From the NCBI GenBank assembly GCA_949457475.1, contig CASUON010000002.1, positions 1 through 36,510 of the forward strand: 36,510 nt of DNA, in the 5' to 3' direction. The stretch comes from an uncultured Lachnospiraceae bacterium (GTDB lineage: Bacteria; Bacillota; Clostridia; Lachnospirales; Lachnospiraceae). Both the position numbers and the translations under genes were made by a program. Positions 17,376-24,608 of this stretch are shown here, one piece after another (within the stretch, counting starts at the first letter, position 1; each line of letters opens with the position of its first letter). Below the pieces are notes generated by a model that saw nothing but the letters and a program-made list of their open reading frames with translations, made no database searches and was not told the origin of the DNA.

Positions 17376-17467
17376 GGAGAATCTATCCCAAATTTAGTCT
17401 ACATAGACCGATAGGGTCTGCCCCAACGTAGCGAGGGCATGCATCCTAAATTTGGGATAGATTCTCC
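17376..17467. repeat. Palindromic repeat (family 1 relative) with perfect 20-bp terminal inverted repeats
   Basis: GGAGAATCTATCCCAAATTT ... AAATTTGGGATAGATTCTCC; core resembles the 3571-3640 element. Confidence 0.85.
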
Positions 17468-17647: not shown

Positions 17648-18568
17648 TTAAATATGAAATTCCTTTCTGGGATGTTTTGTTGTCAGAATATCCCTTTGTT
17701 TGGACATTGTGACATGAGTATAAATTTCTGTAATATTAATCGAGCTGTGCCCGAGCATTTCTTGAATATAGCGGATATCCACATCTGCTTCTAGCAGGCA
17801 GGTTGCGAAAGTGTGGCGGAACATATGCGGCGTAATGTGCAGTTCTATGGCAGCAAGGGACGTGTATTTACGGATCATCCTACGGATGGACTGGTCGGAA
17901 AGCGCCCTGCCGGACTGGTTTGCAAAAAAATGGCTACAGCTCTGCATTTCGGCCAGATAAGTGGTCCTATATTTTTCTAAAGCATGCAAAACATCGTCAT
18001 TTCCAATCTGGATTTTTCTTTCCTTGGAACCTTTCCCATAAATTAAGATACTTCTGTCATGTAAATTTACATCATTGATTTTTAAGGAACATAACTCCGA
18101 AATTCGCATCCCAGTTGCAAAGAGTAGTTCAATTACTGCGATATCCCTGAGCGCGTTTTTCTTCTGAAAGGCTGTTTTGGCCTCCGTATGATATGTATAG
18201 ATTGCAGTTAAAAACTGCTCTACGGTATAGAGGGGGATTGTTTTGGGCAATATGGCTGGATCGCGGAATTTAACTTGTATTTTACTAAAGAGATTCCGGT
18301 CTATGGCGTCTTTGTATTCAAGGTAGTGGAAAAACGCTTTTACGGAGGCGATCTTTCTTTTGACTGTCTTTGGCTTGTATTTTTGATGTAGCGTTGCGAT
18401 AAAATCTTCCAATGTACCTGTCGTAATATTGGTTATGCTATTAGTGGATATGATGGAACAGAATTGTTTCAGGTCGATGCTGTAAGCTTTTTGTGTTTTT
18501 TTGTCCAGCCTTTTTTGGGATTTGCAGTATTCCAGATAGTTATTTATGTGTGTATGTAGGTTGTCCAT
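17648..18568 (-). CDS. Tyrosine recombinase (XerC/XerD/phage integrase family), probably a DNA invertase
   Basis: N-terminal SAM-like domain; catalytic R (ATGMRISELCSLKINDV), HxxR (ITPHMFRHTFATCLLEA), LGHSSINITEIYTHV tyrosine; RBS aaggagg. Confidence 0.93.
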   Translation of the reverse strand: MDNLHTHINNYLEYCKSQKRLDKKTQKAYSIDLKQFCSIISTNSITNITTGTLEDFIATLHQKYKPKTVKRKIASVKAFFHYLEYKDAIDRNLFSKIQVKFRDPAILPKTIPLYTVEQFLTAIYTYHTEAKTAFQKKNALRDIAVIELLFATGMRISELCSLKINDVNLHDRSILIYGKGSKERKIQIGNDDVLHALEKYRTTYLAEMQSCSHFFANQSGRALSDQSIRRMIRKYTSLAAIELHITPHMFRHTFATCLLEADVDIRYIQEMLGHSSINITEIYTHVTMSKQRDILTTKHPRKEFHI

Positions 18569-18779: not shown

Positions 18780-18807
18780 TTGAATGTAGTTGGATTTATG
18801 ATATAAT
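18780..18807 (+). promoter_or_regulatory. Candidate sigma70-type promoter just outside the left inverted repeat, reading into the cassette
   Basis: TTGAAT - 16 bp - TATAAT; about 32 bp before the 50-bp inverted repeat. Confidence 0.65.
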
Positions 18808-18839: not shown

Positions 18840-18889
18840 TTAAAAGTGAAGGATAATACTGGATTATCCGTTAATAGTATTATTGGACA
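18840..18889 (+). repeat. Left copy of a perfect 50-bp inverted repeat bounding the proposed invertible segment
   Basis: ttaaaagtgaaggataatactggattatccgttaatagtattattggaca; exact reverse complement at 24559-24608. Confidence 0.98.
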
Positions 18890-18945
18890 GATTTAACATG
18901 ATTATTTATTTCAATCCATAATTAAAAATAAGTCAGGTGAATAGA

Positions 18946-20052
18946 ATGAATAAATTATTGTCAAAAGCGAATATTTTAATTCGGCAAAACCGGCCATTAG
19001 ACAATCCTGATGAAATAATAACTGTATTTCGCAGAAATAATTTTCTCCAGCTTACATTCCACTCAAATGGGTGCAGGTATAGTGCAGCGGGTTCCTGTAC
19101 TATGTGCAATTATGGTATCGGGAAAATTGCAAAATTACAAGATATTTTATCAGAATTAGAGACAATTTGCCAATCAAAAGATTTTAAAGAATGTGATATG
19201 ATACTCCTCGGTGCATCCGGAAGCTTTTTGGATGATCAGGAAATTCCAGCTGATTATCAGCATAAAATAATGGAACGAATTGCCAAAAGCCATATGCAGG
19301 AGATACACATTGAGACTCATTATAAAAGTATTACGAATCAAAAATTGCATAATATACGTAAAATTTTTCAAAATCAAACAATTACTATAGAAATGGGTCT
19401 CGAAACAGTTACGGAAGAGTTTCAGGAAAATATACTAAATAAAAAAATTCCGTTAAGCGAGTTGAATTCAGTAATAAAGCAAATACATACTGAAAAAATG
19501 CTGACAGCTCTTAATGTACTTGTAGGAATTCCGTTTTTATCAGAAAAGGAACAGCTTGCAGAAGCTTTAAAAACTTTACGCTGGGCATTGAACAACAACG
19601 CTGATTATGTAGTGCTTTTTCCTATAAACATACAGCCATATTCTCTTTTTGAATGGTGGCATAAAAATAATTATATCACTGAACCATCTCTATGGATGCT
19701 TGTTTATTTATTATCAGAATTATCTGATGATGAAATGAGGCACGTCTGTTTTGCGTGGTACGGAAACAGATGTATTACATACTCAAATGAAAGAAAAACA
19801 CAGACTCCACAGGCCTGTTCCGTATGTCGGCCGCAATTAATTAAATTTTTTCAAAAATTTTCGAGTGATTTTAATATAGAAACCCGAAAAACATATCTGA
19901 AACAATTTCTTCAAACAAACTTTGAATGCGATTGTTTCGATAAGTTAAAAAATAAAATTAAAAAAGATACAGACAATTTCCCGGATTTGAAAAGGGGAAA
20001 TTTGGCAGTTAAAGAATGGATGGATAAATATGCAATTGATGGATGCAATTAA
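18946..20052 (+). CDS. Radical SAM protein (Elp3/archaeosine-synthase RaSEA-like architecture)
   Basis: CRYSAAGSCTMCNYG (Cx7Cx2C), ILLGASGSFLDD, IEMGLETV; C-terminal extra cysteines (CSVC, CDC). ATG at 18946 with aggtg SD. Confidence 0.8.
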   Translation: MNKLLSKANILIRQNRPLDNPDEIITVFRRNNFLQLTFHSNGCRYSAAGSCTMCNYGIGKIAKLQDILSELETICQSKDFKECDMILLGASGSFLDDQEIPADYQHKIMERIAKSHMQEIHIETHYKSITNQKLHNIRKIFQNQTITIEMGLETVTEEFQENILNKKIPLSELNSVIKQIHTEKMLTALNVLVGIPFLSEKEQLAEALKTLRWALNNNADYVVLFPINIQPYSLFEWWHKNNYITEPSLWMLVYLLSELSDDEMRHVCFAWYGNRCITYSNERKTQTPQACSVCRPQLIKFFQKFSSDFNIETRKTYLKQFLQTNFECDCFDKLKNKIKKDTDNFPDLKRGNLAVKEWMDKYAIDGCN

Positions 20053-20650
20053 CAATCGAAAAAGCATTCGAAAATTTAAAAAGATAAAAATAGATACACA
20101 AGAGATAAAACAAATTATCAATGCCGCGATACTTGCTCCTTCTGCAAAGAACCGACAGCCATGGCATTTTTATGTCATTCAGGATAAAGAATTGGATATT
20201 CTTTTGGAAAAAGTAGCTGAAGGAATTGAGAATTTATCAGAAGAATATAAAAAAGCAGGCATTTCCAGACCGGATATAGACGCAGCTTACCATACGCTAG
20301 AGAGTATGCATCAGGCATCTGCCATTATAATTATTACATGTAAAAAGAAATATAAAGAAAGTTTTTCAGATGGTGTTAATTGGTATTTAAATGCTCTTGA
20401 TATTGAAACAACAGATATTTTATCAATTGGTGCAGCCATTGAACATATGCTGTTAAAGGCGACTGAAATGGGATATGGAACACTTTGGGTCTGTGATATT
20501 TTTTATGCTTATCCGCAAGTAGTAAAATATTTGCGAACAGATGATGCGGTTGTATCAGCAGTTTGTATCGGATGCTCGGATGAATTTCCATCTGTCCGTT
20601 CACGTCTGTCTATGAATGAAGTAACTACTTTTTATCAAAGCAAGGAGTAA
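20030..20650 (+). CDS. Nitroreductase-family protein
   Basis: MDAINNRKSIRKFKK ... AAILAPSAKNRQPWHFYVIQD ... LSIGAAIEHMLLKATEMGYGTLWVCDI; overlaps the radical SAM stop by 23 bp. Confidence 0.9.
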   Translation: MQLMDAINNRKSIRKFKKIKIDTQEIKQIINAAILAPSAKNRQPWHFYVIQDKELDILLEKVAEGIENLSEEYKKAGISRPDIDAAYHTLESMHQASAIIIITCKKKYKESFSDGVNWYLNALDIETTDILSIGAAIEHMLLKATEMGYGTLWVCDIFYAYPQVVKYLRTDDAVVSAVCIGCSDEFPSVRSRLSMNEVTTFYQSKE

Positions 20651-20655
20651 AATAC

Positions 20656-22950
20656 ATGGATCATATATATTGGATAGGTATAAGAAAATCCGATCTATTG
20701 ACAATTGAAAATTTATATAAAGGATCAGTAACTTTTTTTGGTGATGGAAAAAACGGAAATATATCATTATCACAAACGGGCATTTCCCGTATGAATCACA
20801 ACGTAGATTCGCCAGTTTTTTTTGAGTTTTACGAAATGGCAATGCAACAAATTTTAGATGAAGATAAAAATGCCAAATTTATGTTTTATAATCCGATTCT
20901 GGCATATTTTTTGGATGAACGATTTCGAAAAAGAATTATTTGCCTTAATAATTTTGACGTTCTCAAAATTATTAATAATAAGATATTATGCAAACTATGG
21001 CTTAAAGATCATATACAAATGCTGGGAAATGTTCAGATGTTCGGAAAAGAAATTTCTTTAGAACATCTGAATAAGATTTTAGGCCATAAAAATGAGTATA
21101 TTGTTCAGCTTCCCATTTCTTCTGGAGGCGCAGGAACATACATTTTAAATAAAGATAATGAAGAATCAGTTATTGATCAATTAGATTCATTTAAACAGTA
21201 TATTATCTCTGTTTATTATCCAAATGCAATCCCGATAAATGTACATTGTGTTATTTATGAAAATGACTATTGCATTTATCCAAGTTCAGTACAAATCATA
21301 AAAATAGAAAATAATAATCTTTTATATAAAGGCTGTGATTTTATTGCGGCAAATTCCTTAGACTGGGAAACACAAGAACAAATAAAAAAACAAGCATCCT
21401 TTATCTGTAAAAGATTGTGTAATATCAATTATCGTGGCATTTGTGGTATTGATTTTATGATCATTCATAATAGTGTCTTTTTTTGTGAGATTAATCCAAG
21501 GTTTCAGGCATCTACTGCAATATTAAATTTTGCTCTGGCAAACGAAAATTTATTGTCTGTAAATGAAACAACTATCAATGCTTTTAAGAACCATGGACCA
21601 GATAAAACAATACCTTCCTTTCATGTACCCTACAGTTCATATGCATATGAAGAGCGCCGTGAACTGAATAGTTTTCATAAAAATATATTTCATACTTATT
21701 TTGAGTTGTATCCTGAATATCGAATATTTAAAGATGGATATGATTTTGATGTAACAGCTGAGTCAGGCGCCTATCTATTCAGAGCTGTTTATTCACGTCC
21801 ACTTATCAGCATCTGTCACAATGAAATACATACGTATGAACTTTTTACGGGATATACTTTGCCAACTCCTTTAAATTTGATTCAGCTAAAGATTATGTTA
21901 TTAACTTTCGGTCTTAAGATTTCATCGAAAGCTTTATCATTTATAGAAGAAATAGGAAAAATACGTGAAGCAAATTTTACGGCAATCGACATAATTTTAT
22001 TGGATGATCTGGTGATTAATTGCCCATATAAAACTACTTTTACAGATTTTAGTCCATTTACAATAAATATGGATGATCAAAAACTGCTTTTATTTTATTT
22101 TGAACATAAAATCACTGAAATAAAAATTTATTATGAAAGTAAACTTAATCAGAAAAAAACCCAAAATGGTACTTTTTATAGTTCCGCTGCTTTTTTAGCT
22201 ATGGATCGTTTAAGGATTAATTACAGGCCTGTCTGCTACTATAAAGAAAATGGAAAAAGCTGCCAGTTTTGCAATCTTCCAACGGTAAATCAATCTTATG
22301 ACTTTGAAACTGTTTGCGAAATAATTGATGGATTTTTGGAAGGTGAACAATTTCGGCATATATTATTAGGAGGTGGTTCCGATGATCCGAAAAGTGATTT
22401 TTCGAACATTATTGAATTAACCGCTTATTTGAAAAATAAATCTGATAAACCTATTTATTTAATGTCCCTTCCGCCATATAACCTTGAAATTATCTCTAAG
22501 TTATACAATGCCGGAATCTCTGAAATAGCATTCAATATAGAGGTATTTGATGAAAAATCCGCTATGAAGTATATGCCTGGAAAAGGTTATATTCCCAGAG
22601 AATATTATTATGAAGCTTTACGCAAAGCAGTGATGTTATGGGGTAAAGAAGGAAATGTACGCAGTATGGTGATCATTGGATTGGAACCAGAACAGACTTT
22701 ATTAGCAGGTATCGAAAAATTATGTCAAATAGGTGTGCAGCCAATGCTTTCCATATTCCGTCCATTGGAGCATACACCATTAAGAAATCTGATACCATTG
22801 TCCTGTCAATATTTATACGAATTATATCTGAAAATTTATAATATTTGTTCGAAATATGGCCAGATACTTGGTCCAACTTGTACCTATTGTCAAAATAATA
22901 CACTTGCTATTTCTGAAAAATATGAAAATAAAGAAATTGTTATAATATGA
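20656..22950 (+). CDS. ATP-grasp / radical SAM fusion protein
   Basis: N-terminal ATP-grasp-like region (YIVQLPISSGGAGTYIL, GICGIDFMIIHNSVFFCEINPRFQAST); C-terminal radical SAM (CYYKENGKSCQFCNLP, ILLGGGSDDP, FNIEVFDEKS, MVIIGLEPEQT). RBS aaggag. Confidence 0.8.
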   Translation: MDHIYWIGIRKSDLLTIENLYKGSVTFFGDGKNGNISLSQTGISRMNHNVDSPVFFEFYEMAMQQILDEDKNAKFMFYNPILAYFLDERFRKRIICLNNFDVLKIINNKILCKLWLKDHIQMLGNVQMFGKEISLEHLNKILGHKNEYIVQLPISSGGAGTYILNKDNEESVIDQLDSFKQYIISVYYPNAIPINVHCVIYENDYCIYPSSVQIIKIENNNLLYKGCDFIAANSLDWETQEQIKKQASFICKRLCNINYRGICGIDFMIIHNSVFFCEINPRFQASTAILNFALANENLLSVNETTINAFKNHGPDKTIPSFHVPYSSYAYEERRELNSFHKNIFHTYFELYPEYRIFKDGYDFDVTAESGAYLFRAVYSRPLISICHNEIHTYELFTGYTLPTPLNLIQLKIMLLTFGLKISSKALSFIEEIGKIREANFTAIDIILLDDLVINCPYKTTFTDFSPFTINMDDQKLLLFYFEHKITEIKIYYESKLNQKKTQNGTFYSSAAFLAMDRLRINYRPVCYYKENGKSCQFCNLPTVNQSYDFETVCEIIDGFLEGEQFRHILLGGGSDDPKSDFSNIIELTAYLKNKSDKPIYLMSLPPYNLEIISKLYNAGISEIAFNIEVFDEKSAMKYMPGKGYIPREYYYEALRKAVMLWGKEGNVRSMVIIGLEPEQTLLAGIEKLCQIGVQPMLSIFRPLEHTPLRNLIPLSCQYLYELYLKIYNICSKYGQILGPTCTYCQNNTLAISEKYENKEIVII

Positions 22951-22976
22951 TTCAGCTGCCTATATTAGAAATTGTT

Positions 22977-23016
22977 AAAAATGGTTTTCTGCCTGATTCA
23001 TTAGAAAACCATTTTT
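22977..23016. terminator. Bidirectional terminator between the two cassette modules
   Basis: AAAAATGGTTTTCT - 12 nt - AGAAAACCATTTTT perfect 14-bp stem with A/T tails on both sides, between convergent ORFs. Confidence 0.9.
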
Positions 23017-23057
23017 AACTTTGTCTGATTTAGTAGTTTTTAGGTTAAATTTGTATA

Positions 23058-24515
23058 TTAAAGCTGAATATCTGTTTCATCCGACTCCTCAGTTGGGTTA
23101 TCAATAATATATTGAACTGTATATTGTACATTATTATTTTCAAGAGCTTCGCTTCTTTCTTCTGCTCTTTTTAACTTTTCTTCTTTTTCTTTAATTTCCA
23201 GTTGATTGAGCCTGATTTGCTGATGTGTTAATATTTTCTGCTGAATAGAATCATGTACTTTTGAAAATGTCAGAAACATATTGACTAAGAAAATAAGTTC
23301 ATTGTAATGAGCACAAATAAATGCAATAAAATTACATTCTGAATTATGTCGTATCTCAATATGACTTATTTTCTTTGTACATAAATCATTGATGGAAGAA
23401 TCAATATGTTCGATAAACTGCATCATTTTTTCTGATTCTTTAGAATCGATATTTGTCTGCATAATAATTCTGGCAGTAGGAAATTCATCAAAACTGTCTA
23501 ATAAAGAAGAACGTATTTCGCCAATATTATAGATAAAACTTCTCCGTTCATAAATATTGAATTTCTGTTCTGATACATATTGCTCAATAGATGTATATAA
23601 TCTTTTTAACACATCATATGAAAAAATATTTCCTTGTTTTGCTTGTTTGCAAAAAAACTTAAGCATTCTGAAATTTCTTTGTGCGATAGATTTCCGTATT
23701 CCCATTACAATAGAATTAAAAGCAAGATTTTTTTTGTTTTCTGCTAAATATATATTGGCCAAAGGAAAATATTCCTCTATAGAAGTATAATAAACAATAA
23801 ATGATTCTTTTAATCCCAAATATTCTTCCATCGTAATCATTTGATTATCTGCAGACAAAGTTATATCTTTTTTATTATCCGGCAGCGCATTAAATATCCC
23901 ATAAATATACGGAAACTGAGACATAGGGAAACTGACATTTGATAAATTACAATTTTTTAATTCCATGTACTCAATATTTGAGTTCGAAAATGTAACATCT
24001 TGAAAAGTGCAACAAAGGAATACAGTATTTTCCATCATAGAAGATGAAAACAGGCAATTTTCGAAATTACATCTTTCAAATAATATTTCCGCAACAGTAG
24101 AGCCTTTAAAATTTACATTTTTAAATGTGACTCCATAAAAATTTGAATAGCTTAGGTTCGTGCTTTTAACATTTATATTTTTCCATGTATTTTTTATAAA
24201 TTGGCAATATTGTACATTAGATTCACAGAATGTCGAATTAGATAAACCTGTATTTGAAAAATATGAACCTGTTAATGCAGCATTTCCAAAATTAACGTCT
24301 TGAATCTCGCTATCAATTAATGTGCTCCTCTTCAAACTAACATCTTCAAAACTGCCGTTTATCTTGAGGTTAATTCCATTTTCAAATAAGCGATTATTAT
24401 TTTGCATTAGCGATATATATTTTTCTAATGTATGAACTGCATTTTGTACCTGTATATCAGAAAATTGCTGAATACCATTTTCTAAATGTAGTTTTATATC
24501 CATATATTGCTTCAT
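23058..24515 (-). CDS. Pentapeptide-repeat protein with long helical/coiled-coil C-terminal region
   Basis: NLSYSNFYGVTFKNVNFKGSTVAEILFERCNFENCLF... semi-regular [ANST][LFV]xx[SN] pentapeptides; charged helical tail (LNQLEIKEKEEKLKRAEERSEALE). Confidence 0.8.
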   Translation of the reverse strand: MKQYMDIKLHLENGIQQFSDIQVQNAVHTLEKYISLMQNNNRLFENGINLKINGSFEDVSLKRSTLIDSEIQDVNFGNAALTGSYFSNTGLSNSTFCESNVQYCQFIKNTWKNINVKSTNLSYSNFYGVTFKNVNFKGSTVAEILFERCNFENCLFSSSMMENTVFLCCTFQDVTFSNSNIEYMELKNCNLSNVSFPMSQFPYIYGIFNALPDNKKDITLSADNQMITMEEYLGLKESFIVYYTSIEEYFPLANIYLAENKKNLAFNSIVMGIRKSIAQRNFRMLKFFCKQAKQGNIFSYDVLKRLYTSIEQYVSEQKFNIYERRSFIYNIGEIRSSLLDSFDEFPTARIIMQTNIDSKESEKMMQFIEHIDSSINDLCTKKISHIEIRHNSECNFIAFICAHYNELIFLVNMFLTFSKVHDSIQQKILTHQQIRLNQLEIKEKEEKLKRAEERSEALENNNVQYTVQYIIDNPTEESDETDIQL

Positions 24516-24558
24516 ATGTATGAATGTTTCCTTTCAGTTAAATTTTTATGATAAGAAT

Positions 24559-24608
24559 TGTCCAATAATACTATTAACGGATAATCCAGTATTATCCTTC
24601 ACTTTTAA
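24559..24608 (-). repeat. Right copy of the perfect 50-bp inverted repeat
   Basis: tgtccaataatactattaacggataatccagtattatccttcacttttaa = exact reverse complement of 18840-18889. Confidence 0.98.

Follow-up and report, generated by a model that had tools for sequence, protein, structure and literature searches.

What does a single polypeptide that joins an ATP-grasp enzyme to a radical SAM (rSAM) domain do, and how are the genes around it arranged? This question is raised by an ORF at 20656–22950 in an uncultured Lachnospiraceae bacterium (GCA_949457475.1). The window analysed here is the whole stretch of 36,510 nt, positions 1–36,510 of the forward strand of contig CASUON010000002.1. The fusion proved genuine, an enzyme that is new yet can be understood. 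What makes the locus remarkable, a putative invertible cassette, lies outside the coordinates of the fusion. With a probability of roughly 0.75, we read 18840–24608 as an invertible segment whose inversion switch would select either biosynthesis or a pentapeptide-repeat protein.

The ATP-grasp/rSAM fusion and its operon

The operon contains the following features.

18937–20052, + strand: second rSAM, RaSEA/queuine-lyase-like, Cx7Cx2C (TIGR01210, 9.5e-37, below cut-off)
20030–20650, + strand: nitroreductase-family FMN protein, 206 aa (Pfam Nitroreductase, 1.2e-30)
20656–21855, + strand: ATP-grasp part of the fusion, aa 1–400, including the former "linker" 320–400
21880–22854, + strand: variant rSAM part of the fusion, aa 409–733 (NF045502)
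22234–22272, + strand: Cx8Cx2C [4Fe-4S] motif, codons C527 to C539, invariant in 15/15 fusions
22879–22890, + strand: C-terminal CxxC, codons C742 and C745, invariant in 15/15 fusions

The 764-aa ORF, which has an ATG start, is genuine and encodes an ATP-grasp/rSAM fusion. Pfam ATP-grasp_3 (aa 107–286, 3.6e-9) and Pfam Radical_SAM (aa 535–675, 3.3e-8) matched above their curated cut-offs, and NCBIfam NF045502 variant_rSAM spanned aa 409–733 (1e-45), also above cut-off. In the AlphaFold2 model (15 homologues; pLDDT 90.5, pTM 0.88) both folds were present, and Foldseek matched residues ~1–400 to PurK (TM ~0.6 by target length) and also to an ATP-grasp peptide ligase (8ynd). The two domains named in the original prediction, ATP-grasp at the N terminus and rSAM at the C terminus, were thus confirmed. 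The fusion has the fold, the glycine loop and the metal-binding E/N of ATP-grasp carboxylate-amine ligases, and G157, G158, T161, D266, E278, N280 and R282 are invariant across 15 fusions. The three-cysteine cluster motif has the variant spacing C527-x8-C536-x2-C539; it had been given as Cx7Cx2C, which is the motif of the other rSAM. At the C terminus is a second invariant cysteine pair, C742-x2-C745, and the rSAM of a split relative (G695) has the canonical Cx3Cx2C. The linker of ~150 residues that had been left without assignment does not hold up: judged by homology, aa ~320–400 complete the ATP-grasp protein, an equivalent being present in a stand-alone ATP-grasp protein of 363 aa (G116), and aa 409–500 are the N-terminal part of the rSAM family, within one variant-rSAM unit (409–733).

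The MSMEG_0568 equivalog TIGR04043 scored 95.6 bits on the fusion, below its curated cut-off of 303.7. A PDB sequence search with the fusion gave no match, and a PDB profile search gave weak matches to ATP-grasp enzymes only. No PADLOC match of note was obtained for the window proteins.

The second rSAM and the nitroreductase, described before as neighbours of the fusion, were found directly upstream of it, nearly overlapping, in one operon. The true start of the second rSAM is likely the ATG at 18947, after AGGTGA. This protein scored 126.9 bits on the RaSEA equivalog TIGR01210 (cut-off 212) and phmmer linked it weakly (1.1e-5) to queuine lyase 6p78. The nitroreductase is optional, present only in the window, L043 and L051. 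As reported before, no precursor peptide was seen; a RiPP reading was rejected for the window because the operon holds no candidate precursor ORF of at least 40 aa.

The enzyme folds are present and their conserved residues intact; as to the chemistry, we infer that the ATP-grasp half would join a carboxylate to an amine via an acyl phosphate, and that bond cleavage or carbon remodelling would be the work of the two rSAM enzymes. The probable product of the operon is a small metabolite derived from an amino acid. That part of the original prediction fits the wider family, in which some loci have an NspC-like decarboxylase gene and one switch locus has genes for a PLP decarboxylase, a carrier protein and an adenylation enzyme, but the inverted repeats, the recombinase and the convergent pentapeptide gene had been missed. 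It is very improbable that the fusion unites a PylC/PylB-like pair which produces a rearranged amino acid dipeptide: an ATP-grasp is paired with an rSAM and the ATP-grasp_3 family is common to PylC and the fusion (PylC model TIGR03909, a weak match at 0.0011, 17.8 bits versus a cut-off of 248.3), but the rSAM belongs to the NF045502/MSMEG_0568 group, not to PylB, and no PylD-like gene was seen.

No match was obtained when genome contigs were scanned with the single fusion sequence. A profile from an alignment of three fusions, scanned against 85,462 species genomes, gave 55 loci, of which 48 were family members (L043–L090), nearly all in Clostridia and Bacilli. There were fourteen full-length relatives (15 fusions with the window), and most fusions are 754–812 aa long. 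When neighbours were tabulated a RaSEA-like gene recurred, located before the fusion in the window, L043, L044, L045, L046, L052, L053 and L056. A carboxynorspermidine-decarboxylase-like (NspC-like) gene was found in L052, L053, L054, L056 and L070; the nspC match in L053 was 5e-105, below cut-off. Because the ATP-grasp and the variant rSAM are encoded by adjacent separate genes in several lineages (e.g. L083, L085, L087; L057, L066, L070), a joint function is indicated. Fusions and split versions together support a single enzyme system to which an archaeosine-lyase-like second rSAM belongs.

In the ATP-grasp tree all fusions group together, with the rSAM-less G116 protein inside on a long branch, its place unsure. 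Few genomes of the order have the fusion-type ATP-grasp part: 6 of 392, even with weak matches counted. Viral contigs gave no match for the fusion or the pentapeptide protein. Among the plasmid matches listed there were only MSMEG_0568-type rSAMs beside nitrilases, ~24–26% identical to the fusion, and none covers most of it.

Other arrangements were also observed. L051:15-2879 encodes a triple fusion with a RaSEA-like C-terminal part in front of ATP-grasp and rSAM (955 aa, start cut by the contig start); a nitroreductase accompanies it, and the contig was binned as Atopobiaceae. In Bacilli (L072–L082), related ATP-grasp proteins stand in a conserved set with a GT4 glycosyltransferase and a guanylate-kinase-like protein, often including a HelD-like RNA polymerase recycling helicase; L073, the one scanned of these loci, encodes a NUDIX~ATP-grasp fusion.

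Inverted repeats, recombinase and convergent pentapeptide gene

Around the operon the window contains the following features.

17648–18568, − strand: tyrosine recombinase, XerC/D-like, 306 aa, candidate invertase (Pfam Phage_integrase, 1.1e-43)
18780–18807, + strand: predicted sigma-70 promoter TTGAAT-N16-TATAAT with TGn, outside the left arm, inward-pointing
18840–18889: left inverted-repeat arm, 50 bp, 100% complementary to 24559–24608; core 18852–18868, GATAATACTGGATTATC
22960–23033: hairpin between the convergent genes, possible terminator, 31-nt arms, 84%; missed by a simple terminator scan
23058–24515, − strand: pentapeptide-repeat protein, 485 aa (Pfam Pentapeptide_4, 6.3e-20), downstream of the fusion, convergent
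24559–24608: right inverted-repeat arm; core 24580–24596

The two arms are the window's only inverted repeat of at least 20 bp with arms 1.5–8 kb apart. The 5.8-kb segment between them holds the second rSAM, the nitroreductase, the fusion and the convergent pentapeptide gene. One inverted repeat was present in 12 of 12 loci having the pentapeptide protein and both flanks, and such repeats were present in 3 of 46 control loci (635 kb). Its length ranges from 21 to 143 bp (window 50, L017 143, L043 101–109, L044 21, L047 25, L048 54, L049 104, L055 24, L031 51, L123 37, L124 22 and L139 21 bp). L139 was picked by the pentapeptide domain only; the repeat was searched for afterwards and was present. 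Biosynthetic gene(s) and the pentapeptide gene are enclosed together in 11 of the 12 loci, and the pentapeptide gene alone in L123. The contigs of L045 and L050 stop at or in such arms, and L046 has one site before its contig end.

Both arms of 10 loci contain a 17-bp core, GATAAY-N5-RTTATC, which in the window reads GATAAT-ACTGG-ATTATC. The 5-bp spacer of the core is the same in the two arms of each locus and different in all ten loci, which points to recombination between the arms; the arms themselves are identical or nearly so within a locus only. The exact motif GGATAAT-N5-8-ATTATCC is confined to the two arms in the whole 3.59-Mb genome. We infer that the segment flips, and consider site-specific inversion very likely. 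Three inverted-repeat pairs of 23–71 bp, not related to the 17-bp core, were seen at L021:135-3690 (G053) around a PLP gene and a variant-rSAM gene.

Two loci carry other cargo. In G215 (L123) the recombinase and the invertible pentapeptide gene alone are followed by a RaSEA-like rSAM, a PLP decarboxylase, a carrier protein and an adenylation enzyme. In G100 (L124) the pentapeptide gene shares the space between the arms with a 657-aa rSAM of another type and a 60-aa glycine-rich ORF. The conserved heart of these loci is therefore the repeat arms, the pentapeptide protein and mostly rSAM chemistry. Two details were noted beside this: at L123:2049-9552 the arms include the RBS and ATG of the pentapeptide gene, and the 60-aa ORF (L124:7849-8031), directly after the rSAM and glycine-rich at its C terminus, is a possible RiPP precursor.

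The recombinase gene sits just outside the left arm. Its product fell below the cut-off of the XerC model and has no close second copy in the genome, the next best being 31% identical. Recombinase homologues adjoin the L031, L043, L044 (here on the pentapeptide side) and L049 loci, and a piece is left in L017; L139 has none nearby, and no recombinase could be recognised in L047, L048 or L055. The protein encoded at 17648–18568 would be the recombinase that acts. Beside this gene there is also a 29-nt, 90% inverted repeat with a 34-nt loop (17376–17467).

The pentapeptide protein was modelled (pLDDT 79.4) as a beta-helix at ~51–197, a helical region and an RRM-like C-terminal domain with conserved H/R-N-S. 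Foldseek matched the beta-helix to AlbG, Qnr, MfpA and HalA; the Qnr family model NF033086 gave 35.9 bits against a cut-off of 240. The C-terminal region of ~280 aa had no Pfam match, and a PDB profile search with its domain gave nothing meaningful. Homologues in the same convergent position were found in L017, L031, L043, L044, L045, L047, L048, L049, L050, L055 and L139. Of 200 genomes of the family, 5 had the C-terminal domain; among 291 of the class, only the window's own genome had it. A conserved family of ~240 aa lacking Pfam matches (L047:11272-11982, L048:11260-11982, L050:2289-2984, L046:11267-11998) lies at the 3′ end of the fusion on the opposite strand, before the pentapeptide gene where that exists. 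Large co-directional pentapeptide proteins of 957 and 849 aa (L053:12483-15356, L054:12478-15027) come after the fusion and the NspC-like gene, there without inverted repeats.

In six loci a strong inward predicted promoter was found on one side only, with four of them having it on the operon side (the window, L017, L047, L055) and two on the pentapeptide side (L049, L124), although promoter-like matches in the region are at chance level (34 found versus 40.2 expected in shuffles). The flank of G003 (L017) aligns with the window's left flank, with the same promoter kept beside the arm. Predicted promoters were weak or ambiguous in L043, L044, L048, L031 and L123, and in L139 there were none on either side. 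The two placements fit a switch read in different states across species, the comparison being between species with one genome for each. A weak 9/12 promoter match (24577–24548) begins in the right arm just upstream of the pentapeptide gene, so that this gene might be expressed in both states.

How the segment may work

In the preferred reading, the dedicated tyrosine recombinase would recombine the two inverted sites and flip the 5.8-kb segment. As sequenced, the fixed promoter outside the left arm would read the operon of second rSAM, nitroreductase and fusion; after a flip, the same promoter would read the pentapeptide gene on the other strand. The two transcription units are convergent and hence cannot both face the promoter. 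Their alternate expression is likely.

Pentapeptide proteins such as AlbG, McbG, Qnr and MfpA protect a target, which for AlbG, Qnr and MfpA is gyrase. One account of the switch is that the operon makes a toxic metabolite, perhaps directed at gyrase, from which the pentapeptide protein shields the target, and that flipping gives producers and protected non-producers. The gyrase-protecting proteins are the best structural matches of the beta-helix, and the pentapeptide gene stays beside rSAM biosynthesis though the cargo changes (L123, L124). However, pentapeptide folds serve many functions, the large extra C-terminal region is unlike Qnr/MfpA, and producers lacking immunity would poison themselves, unless the protein stayed on or the action of the product were confined to the outside. 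We consider this account rather unlikely.

The same holds for a signalling or defence switch, in which the pentapeptide protein would be a receptor or effector with an RRM-like (TRADD-N-like) domain and the metabolite either its ligand or a weapon in its own right. The C-terminal domain may be TRADD-N-like: in its beta-alpha-beta-beta-alpha order and its invariant Ser in the beta2–beta3 turn it resembles the description of TRADD-N, a domain whose bacterial proteins also have pentapeptide repeats (PMC8195603). The structural match to HalA (9nyi) and the ~240-aa protein that follows the pentapeptide gene in L047, L048 and L050 also point this way; against it, the C-terminal domain had no Pfam or PDB sequence match, and PADLOC gave nothing of note. 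Reading the repeats as the ends of a transposon-like element, in the manner of terminal inverted repeats, is highly doubtful. Loci in different genomic contexts suggest that the unit moves between genomes, but the core is a palindrome around an asymmetric spacer, and arm sequences vary between loci and not within one. The idea was rejected on account of the recombinase: wherever one was found it is encoded outside the arms, and it is of the tyrosine type, not a DDE transposase.

The inversion switch also admits a broader, tentative picture, which we hold at somewhat less than even odds. The loci would be mobile cassettes of gut Clostridia in which inversion splits a clonal population into makers of a small molecule and makers of a pentapeptide protein that protects against it or responds to it. 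The cargo would be exchangeable: ATP-grasp~rSAM, ATP-grasp alone, or another rSAM type with a small peptide.

The best-known role of DNA inversion in gut bacteria is the control of surface structures. In the window, inversion seems to choose between metabolite production and a protein of a resistance- or defence-linked fold. If true, this would amount to division of labour hard-wired into gut bacteria, and would explain to chemists why such a cluster may appear silent in culture.

Comparison with known systems

A literature search of incomplete coverage found no paper combining these elements. Taken singly, the parts have relatives. The second rSAM aligns to TIGR01210 like RaSEA (archaeosine) and queuine lyase; in contrast to these, it is bacterial, falls far under the cut-off and adjoins an ATP-grasp, with no tRNA-modification genes beside it. 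The variant rSAMs of NF045502/MSMEG_0568 (nit1C) share one domain model with fusion aa 409–733, but they adjoin nitrilase genes, whereas the window rSAM is fused to ATP-grasp and has no nitrilase. The right-handed beta-helix of the pentapeptide protein is that of Qnr, MfpA and AlbG, which do not carry its extra C-terminal region.

Like C. difficile RecV (PMC7446863) and invertons (PMC11892184), the putative switch combines a DNA recombinase, inverted repeats and reversible control of expression. The RecV flagellar switch lies upstream of its own operon (PMC7446863); the window segment differs from RecV and inverton switches in its 5.8 kb with whole genes inside, its dedicated neighbouring recombinase and its own core.

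The G segment of phage Mu is an inversion switch between alternate genes, in which the serine recombinase Gin chooses tail-fibre variants. As in the G segment, two convergent units lie between inverted sites with one promoter outside, and a flip would select between them; unlike it, the window has a tyrosine recombinase, and the choice would be between a biosynthetic operon and a pentapeptide protein.
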